From an uncultured Pelagibacteraceae bacterium (GTDB lineage Bacteria > Pseudomonadota > Alphaproteobacteria > Pelagibacterales > Pelagibacteraceae): a stretch of 64,000 nt of DNA. Location: assembly GCA_902629695.1 (NCBI GenBank), contig CACORY010000003.1, positions 16,730 to 80,729 of the forward strand. Direction: 5' to 3'. Below the pieces are notes generated by a model. It worked only from the letters and a program-made list of their open reading frames with translations. It had not been told where the DNA came from and made no database searches. The first letter of the stretch is position 1, and each line of letters opens with the position of its first letter. Of this stretch, positions 47,869-49,933 are shown in pieces. Made by a program: the position numbers and the translations under genes.

Positions 47869-49695
47869 GTGGAAAGAATTATTACTAAATCATTCGCTAG
47901 ATTAATGGGGAGAGGAACTCATAGAGGTTTCATTACTCATGAAGAGTTAAGCAAGTCATTAGGTAAAAGAAATTTATCGGATGAAAATCTTGCTCAAGCT
48001 TTTATTCACATTCTAAATGAGAAAATCACACTTGTAGAAAAAAAATCTGACTACAAGGTTTTAAGAAAAAAAGAAAAATCTTCTAAAGAAGAAGGTAAAT
48101 CAATTGAAAAAAGTGATGATCCTATAAGAATGTATTTAAGAGAGATGGGAGGTGTTGAGTTACTTTCTAGAGAGGGAGAGATTGCAATTGCAAAAAGAAT
48201 AGAAGCTGGGAAAGATGTTATGTTAATCGCACTATCTCAAAGTCCAATTACAGCACAACAATTTTTTGAGTGGGATGAAAAGTTACAAAATGAGGAAATT
48301 TTAGTAAGAGAAATTATAGATATTGATACAAATTACATGGAAGATGAGTCTACAGGCCCGAGTGCAAAACAAAAAAATTCAGCAGATGTTGATAAAGATG
48401 AAAATTCAAATGATGAAAGTGATGATGATTTTAATCCAACACTTGCTGCTATGGAAAGTGAAATAAAACCCAAAGTTTTAAAAACTGTAAAATTTTTGAC
48501 CAAAGAATATAATAAGCTTATAAGATATCAAAAAGAAAAACTAGATTGTGTTTTAAAATCAGAAACATTTTCATCTGCAAAAGAAAAAAGCTATGAAAAA
48601 ATAGTTGATGAAATCTTAAAAAATATTAAATCTCTTCAACTTTCTCCATCTGTGCTAGAGGATCTCGTTCAAAAACATTATGTTGAAAATAGAAAAATTC
48701 TTTCACTAGAGGGAAATTTATTAAGACTTGCTATGAATAACAAAATTTCTAGAGGTGAATTTATAAAATTTTATGTAGGTAATGAAATAAATCCTAATCT
48801 TAAAAAATTTTTAGACACAAATTCTACCTGGAAAGAATTTTTTTCTAAAAACAAAGATGAATTTAAAAATATTAAGGAAAGATTAATTGAGATAAGTCAT
48901 AAGCTGGGAATTTCGGTGACTGATTTCAAAAAATTAGTTAGTAGGGTTCAGAAGGGTGAAAAAGAGTCGAGGATTGCAAAAAAAGAAATGGTTGAGGCAA
49001 ACCTAAGATTGGTAATATCAATTGCAAAAAAATATACAAATAGAGGACTTCAATTCCTGGATTTAATCCAAGAGGGCAATATTGGTTTAATGAAAGCAGT
49101 TGATAAATTTGAATATAGAAGAGGTTATAAGTTTTCAACATATGCTACTTGGTGGATTAGGCAAGCAATTACAAGATCAATTGCTGATCAAGCCAGAACT
49201 ATCAGAATTCCAGTCCATATGATTGAGACAATAAATAAAATTGTTAGAACACAAAGACTAATACTTAGTGAATATGGTCGAGAGGCAACACCTGAGGAAT
49301 TAGCAAAAAAACTTCGAATGCCTTTAGATAAGGTAAGAAAAGTTTTAAAAATTTCAAAAGAACCAGTTTCATTGGAAAAACCAGTTGGTGATGAAGAAGA
49401 TAGCAGCTTAGGAGATTTTATTGAAGATACAAAAGCACTTGCTCCATTGGAACAAGCGATCAAATCTAATTTGGGAGAGGCAACAACAAAAATTCTTTCA
49501 ACTTTAACACCTAGGGAAGAAAGAGTTTTAAGAATGAGATTTGGTGTAGGGATGAATACAGATCATACACTCGAAGAAGTTGGTTTGCAATTTTCTGTTA
49601 CAAGAGAAAGAATTCGACAAATTGAAGCTAAAGCTTTAAGAAAGTTAAAGCATCCTAGCAGATCTAAGCAATTAAAAAGTTTCTTAGAAAGTTAG
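47869..49695 (+). CDS. rpoD: RNA polymerase primary sigma factor (GTG start)
   Basis: [83 protein letters not shown]. Confidence 0.98.
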
Positions 49696-49707: not shown

Positions 49708-49782
49708 GGGCCGTTAGCTCAATAGTAGAGTACTGCATTGACATTGCAGGGGTAGTTGGAGCGTAACCAACACGGCCCACCA
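49708..49782 (+). tRNA. tRNA-Val(GAC), CCA encoded, atypical D-loop and T-loop
   Basis: Acceptor GGGCCGT/ACGGCCC, anticodon stem CTGCA/TGCAG with loop TTGACAT, T-stem GTTGG/CCAAC but T-loop AGCGTAA. Confidence 0.85.
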
Positions 49783-49856: not shown

Positions 49857-49933
49857 GGGCCTGTAGCTCAGTTGGTTAGAGCAGTACACTCATAATGTAT
49901 TGGTCCCAGGTTCGAGTCCTGGCGGGCCCACCA
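49857..49933 (+). tRNA. tRNA with CAT anticodon; most likely tRNA-Ile2 (lysidine type) rather than Met
   Basis: Cloverleaf GGGCCTG/CGGGCCC, anticodon loop CTCATAA, T-loop TTCGAGT, encoded CCA; body resembles ileX-type tRNAs. Confidence 0.9.

Follow-up and report, generated by a model that had tools for sequence, protein, structure and literature searches.

The elbow of a canonical bacterial tRNA is built on the contacts G18-Psi55, G19-C56, T54-A58 and R15-Y48. A tRNA-Val gene with the anticodon GAC, found in a 64,000-nt stretch of DNA from an uncultured Pelagibacteraceae bacterium (the window), departs from all of these contacts except G19-C56. This raises the question of whether such a gene encodes an ordinary tRNA of translation and, if so, what takes the place of the missing contacts.

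The tRNA-Val(GAC) gene and its fold

The gene occupies positions 49708-49782 of the window on the + strand, as are its parts below and the neighboring tRNA, with its encoded CCA included; it was located by ARAGORN and is further supported by Rfam, by its cloverleaf fold and by identical copies in the genus. It lies 3' of an open reading frame at 47869-49695, taken for rpoD, a sigma factor gene, and 5' of a tRNA with a CAU anticodon at 49857-49933 (sequence, ARAGORN, Rfam), a canonical neighbor that has G18/U55 and serves as an internal control. The Rfam tRNA model (RF00005) scored 53.6 bits on tRNA-Val(GAC) against a gathering score of 29, and at minimum free energy the sequence folds into a perfect cloverleaf (-28.6 kcal/mol, z -3.3). 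The 5' strand of the acceptor stem (49708-49714) pairs with 49772-49778, and the 3' segment (49772-49782; direct reading and fold) ends with the discriminator A73 and CCA. Together with these two, the anticodon GAC at 49740-49742 (ARAGORN), for GUU and GUC, marks the gene as tRNA-Val. A preliminary description had seen here perfectly paired stems, an encoded CCA and a functional-looking tRNA, and ARAGORN, Rfam and the fold agree with it.

The loops are where the gene departs from the norm. The D-loop AATAGTA (49721-49727) reads A14 A15 U16 A18 G19 U20 A21, with A15 at 49722, A18 at 49724 and G19 at 49725. The T-loop AGCGTAA (49760-49766) reads A54 G55 C56 G57 U58 A59 A60, and A48 (49754) stands opposite A15 as an unusual Levitt pair. 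Direct reading confirmed the letters first reported for both loops, for A18 and for A15/A48, and an alignment of relatives also supports A48 and the T-loop. The gene shares with the canonical elbow the cloverleaf, G19-C56, the purine at 57, U8, A14, U33, the stem lengths, A73 and CCA. Unlike the canonical elbow, it has other letters at 18, 55, 54, 58 and 48, giving A18/G55 for G18/U55, A54/U58 for U54-A58 and A15 facing A48 for R15-Y48. Because U is missing at both 54 and 55, tRNA-Val(GAC) can carry neither m5U54 nor Psi55, exactly as had been proposed.

Conservation and purifying selection

A search of 61 genomes gave matches to tRNA-Val(GAC) in 30, all of one genus; the genomes concerned here are 1.0-1.5 Mb at 28% GC, which makes an assignment to Pelagibacterales plausible. 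All 75 bases are identical in 21 genomes, the window genome counted, while the flanks (60 bases upstream and 40 downstream) have diverged between relatives. Identity at 75/75 despite diverged flanks rules out chance or a sequencing error, and an assembly error was dismissed in view of the same 21 copies. One DNA match, in G027 (L055), was excluded because the copy looks damaged or misassembled.

Among the nine distinct sequences aligned, 12 of the 21 stem pairs are variable, 11 of them with changes on both sides, and pairing is 100% throughout, a state that none of 500 shuffles of this alignment reached. Within the acceptor stem, two-sided compensatory change was seen in relatives at 5/7 pairs. 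Furthermore, columns 15, 18, 19, 48, 54, 55, 56 and 58 show zero variation in these nine sequences, and G19 and C56, thought from the start to be kept, are thus invariant.

The preliminary description would have been refuted by a canonical T-arm in this gene or by a second, normal tRNA-Val(GAC), and neither was encountered. No second copy was found among the 26 tRNA matches of the window genome, which is 79.75% complete, nor in the complete relative G011, where a generic tRNA-Val(GAC) pattern gave a single gene; annotated phages held no tRNA-Val(GAC)-like sequence. In most genomes of the genera g5, g6, g8 and g9, the generic pattern matched no tRNA-Val(GAC), and there all GUN codons may be read by tRNA-Val(UAC).

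Coordinated switching within the genus and the order

A tRNA with both A18 and G55 is present in 103 of 113 genomes of the genus, all of them at least 90% complete except the window genome; among the matches listed it is either tRNA-Val(GAC) or tRNA-Phe(GAA). Three members of the genus have a tRNA-Val with canonical loops, namely G036 (ATCGGTTA / TTCGATT), G081 (ACCGGTTA / TTCAATT) and G082 (ACTGGTTA / TTCGATT), and in each of them positions 18, 54, 55 and 58 are canonical jointly. The G036 gene is identical to the window gene in the acceptor stem, the anticodon arm and the D-stem and differs from it in the D-loop and the variable-loop/T-arm region, which means that two separate segments have switched jointly. 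The idea that the D-loop and T-loop changed in a coordinated manner, rather than through sequencing error, is thereby upheld: the altered state is fixed in most of the genus, and in three relatives positions 18, 54, 55 and 58 switch as a set. What needs revision is the accompanying notion that the usual contacts were simply removed. The letters of G18-Psi55, T54-A58 and R15-Y48 are indeed gone, but since the new letters switch jointly as matching sets, the tertiary contacts appear to have been replaced.

On the RpoB tree, the elbow states of tRNA-Val require at least four changes, and the canonical G081 is nested in a group whose other members are of the altered form. The full set of A15/A48, A18/G55 and A54/U58 is also found in other tRNA-Val genes of the order, among them those of genus g7 and of one g8 genome. 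In the canonical-loop genes L051/L101 (G036), L103 (G081) and L105 (G082), the Levitt pair is inverted or unusual, with U15/G48 and C15/A48 as the combinations seen.

The tRNA-Phe(GAA) of the window genome (G000:C1:123859-123930; L017) has A18 (AGGAGTA) and G55 (TGCGAAT) and is canonical at 54/58 and 15/48. Its A18/G55 form, as AGGAGTA / TGCGAAT or AGTAGTA / TGCGATT, occurs across much of the genus as well as in g8 and g9; the tRNA-Phe of genera g5, g6 and g7, of f2 and of some genus members has G18/U55. Most tRNAs of the window genome retain G18/U55.

Covariation of residues 18 and 55 in other phyla

A scan of a large collection of species genomes for G55 tRNAs, in which the D-loop was left free and Val and Phe anticodons were excluded, gave at least 120 stretches. 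Among the matches listed, A18/G55 tRNAs come from Actinomycetota, Verrucomicrobiota, Planctomycetota, Cyanobacteriota, Patescibacteria, several archaea and others. Again among the matches listed, and in raw counts uncorrected for relatedness, A18 is carried by 80 of the 84 distinct tRNAs of other phyla chosen on G55 alone, and the unselected tRNAs of the same loci divide into 99 with G18/U55, 70 with A18/G55, none with A18/U55 and 13 others; the assignment of position 18 preferred G over A when both were possible, a bias against finding A18 in G55 tRNAs. In 117 genomes of Patescibacteria, the phylum of L151, A18 is present in 9/10 G55 tRNAs, and in 242 alphaproteobacterial genomes the same pattern found A18/G55 tRNAs solely in this order, a tRNA-His of G061 included. 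A few G55 tRNAs (L131, L165, L203, G631, G789) retain G18, so that A18-G55 pairing is not strictly required. As judged from these genes, the exchange of G18/U55 for A18/G55 is a recurrent one in other tRNAs of bacteria and archaea.

The three-site set of A15/A48, A18/G55 and A54/U58 was also found in the tRNA-His(GTG) of L151, L161 and L187, from Microgenomates-type bacteria, with the T-loop AGCGTTA and the variable loop AAGTA. Elsewhere A54/U58 is seen with different 15/48 combinations, indicating that the 54/58 swap is separable from the 18/55 swap.

Proposed elbow architecture

Taken at the level of the gene, tRNA-Val(GAC) is a true natural tRNA, functional-looking and with a coordinated alternative elbow. 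From its conservation and its intact tRNA features we infer that it acts in translation, and it is probably an ordinary translating tRNA for GUU and GUC in which the D-loop and the T-loop make alternative, self-consistent contacts. Comparison of the genes shows that G18/U55 is exchanged for A18/G55 in one step, that A54/U58 takes the place of U54/A58, that A15 is accompanied by A48 and that G19-C56 stays unchanged.

A 'specific purine trap' is said to have been described by Doyon, Zagryadskaya, Chen and Steinberg in the J Mol Biol of 2004, in E. coli suppressor tRNAs that were selected in vivo and reportedly came from a randomised library with U54-A58. According to the rule attributed to that work, the purine at 18 follows residue 55, G going with U and A with G. 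If the suppressors obey it, they would show that an A18/G55 pair works in translation. The genes described here differ in being natural, and the tRNA-Val form additionally swaps 54/58 and 15/48. The covariation of A18 with G55 is as expected of the trap; of its further marks, a purine at 57 and U54-A58, tRNA-Phe has both, whereas tRNA-Val has G57 but A54/U58. The natural use of the A18/G55 rule, the three-site form and the evolution seen here are apparently undescribed.

In the normal elbow, residue 18 is inserted between residues 57 and 58 and contacts Psi55, and residue 19 pairs with residue 56 (PMC4810234). In tRNA-Val(GAC), A18 would slot between 57 and 58 just as G18 does normally and pair with G55, and G55-C56-R57-A18 would form a composite GNRA-like turn with no need for pseudouridine. 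Such an arrangement would account for the pairing of A with G and for the purine kept at 57. A similar G at T-loop position 2 is found in the UGNRA type R1 lonepair triloop, a T-loop motif of the TPP riboswitch and other RNAs, in which the G of the triloop, by binding either an A from outside or the pyrimidine of TPP, gives a composite GNRA tetraloop or turn (PMC2258182). The T-loop UGCGA of tRNA-Phe fits the UGNRA consensus; the AGCGU of tRNA-Val does not, owing to its reversed closing pair.

The T-loop of tRNA-Val(GAC) would be closed by A54-U58, and the purine pair A15/A48 would make room for the purine at 54. Purine-purine 15/48 together with A54 is likewise known from eukaryotic tRNA-Ala, in which R15/A48 is coupled with A54, residues 48 and 54 lying on the same strand and moving jointly (Westhof 2020, PMC7566577). 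That type is R15/A48 with A54/A58, and its pairs were found in no bacteria or archaea in the same study; tRNA-Val(GAC), unlike it, is bacterial and has U58 and A18/G55. The coupling of 48 and 54 seems loose here, as A48 is kept alongside U54/A58 in the tRNA-Val of G081 and G082. It also speaks against this pair model that exchanging the two letters of a reverse-Hoogsteen pair, as A54/U58 would do, does not preserve isostericity.

Natural, conserved A18/G55 tRNAs, whether or not 54/58 and 15/48 are swapped as well, could reveal which elbow contacts are essential, these being by the present reading G19-C56 and a match between residue 55 and the purine at 18. They constitute a ready natural sequence set for studies of structure and modification. 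Programs that find tRNAs or predict their modifications on the assumption of TTCRANY should accommodate elbows of this type.

Alternative explanations and the apparent loss of TruB

Elbow changes occur in tRNAs diverted from translation, as in the staphylococcal tRNA-Gly for peptidoglycan. Such a role would be conceivable here since the window genome also has a canonical tRNA-Val(UAC), which could in principle cover the Val box, and tRNA-Val(GAC) is unmatched in many sister-genus genomes. It is nevertheless very unlikely, because tRNA-Val(GAC) is the sole GUC/GUU-specific tRNA found, GTT and GTC make up 56% of the Val codons in the long open reading frames of the window, the Val anticodon bases, A73, CCA and G19-C56 are retained, and A18/G55 recurs in tRNA-Phe here and the entire set of loop letters in the tRNA-His of other bacteria. 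The apparent loss of the gene in some relatives might instead hint at neutral decay of a dispensable tRNA, an explanation refuted for this genus by conservation and left with a vanishingly small probability by the 21 identical copies between diverged flanks, the compensated stems and the same loop solution in other phyla. A joint change of 18 and 55 might, with no direct contact between them, just serve to evade modifying enzymes, since TrmH at G18 and TruB at U55 would both lose their target base. This is again highly improbable, for evasion would not dictate A with G, and other letter combinations, equally good for that end, are rare.

A larger share of the probability, small as it is, goes to the loss of TruB, the Psi55 synthase, as the driver, G18-U55 being weaker without pseudouridine and tRNAs converting singly to the A18-G55 elbow. 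With two profile families, zero TruB matches were obtained in 30 genomes of the genus (g1), several of them one-contig genomes 99-100% complete, in 7 of g8 and in 4 of g9, and with one profile family there were none in one genome each of g10 and g12. TruB was found in every tested genome of g5, g6, g7, g11 and f2 and in 14/14 controls, and in sister genera truB lies within infB-rbfA-truB-rpsO-pnp. This distribution can be explained by one loss on a single branch of the RpoB tree, and in the genomes sampled A18/G55 tRNA-Phe is limited to the TruB-less clade; no TruB match was obtained either in the five CPR genomes tested, each of which has an A18/G55 tRNA-His. Yet the window genome has G18/U55 in most of its tRNAs despite lacking a TruB match, several TruB-less members of the genus have a canonical tRNA-Phe, and a single loss offers no independent replicates. 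A18/G55 is also found in the tRNA-Val of TruB-positive g7 genomes (G191, G132) and in the tRNA-His of the TruB-positive G061. The loss of TruB is therefore at most a contributing pressure, and the missing profile matches are suggestive, but not sufficient, as support for its having driven the switch.

The translating tRNA with replaced contacts thus stays the preferred reading of tRNA-Val(GAC), and the data suggest that an abundant bacterial group may live without Psi55. A wider scenario is put forward tentatively, as rather doubtful in its entirety: a free-living lineage would have lost a near-universal Psi55 synthase, its tRNA set would be in mid-conversion from G18-Psi55 to a pseudouridine-free A18-G55, and the three-site form of tRNA-Val would be a distinct second elbow architecture that arose by convergence in two or more bacterial lineages distant from each other.

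Other tRNAs with unusual T-loops

The Streptomyces tRNAs L126, L129, L145, L156, L169, L173 and L197 have one common Pro-like body, mostly with a CGACGTG.. acceptor, and diverse anticodons (CCG, CGG, GTG, CTG, GCA), and they carry A18/G55 with mostly G54/G58; at L145 three of them lie in tandem. The loci L134, L166, L186 and L213, perhaps tRNA arrays on mobile elements, hold multiple A18/G55 tRNAs together with other odd T-loops such as ATCGTTG with G18.
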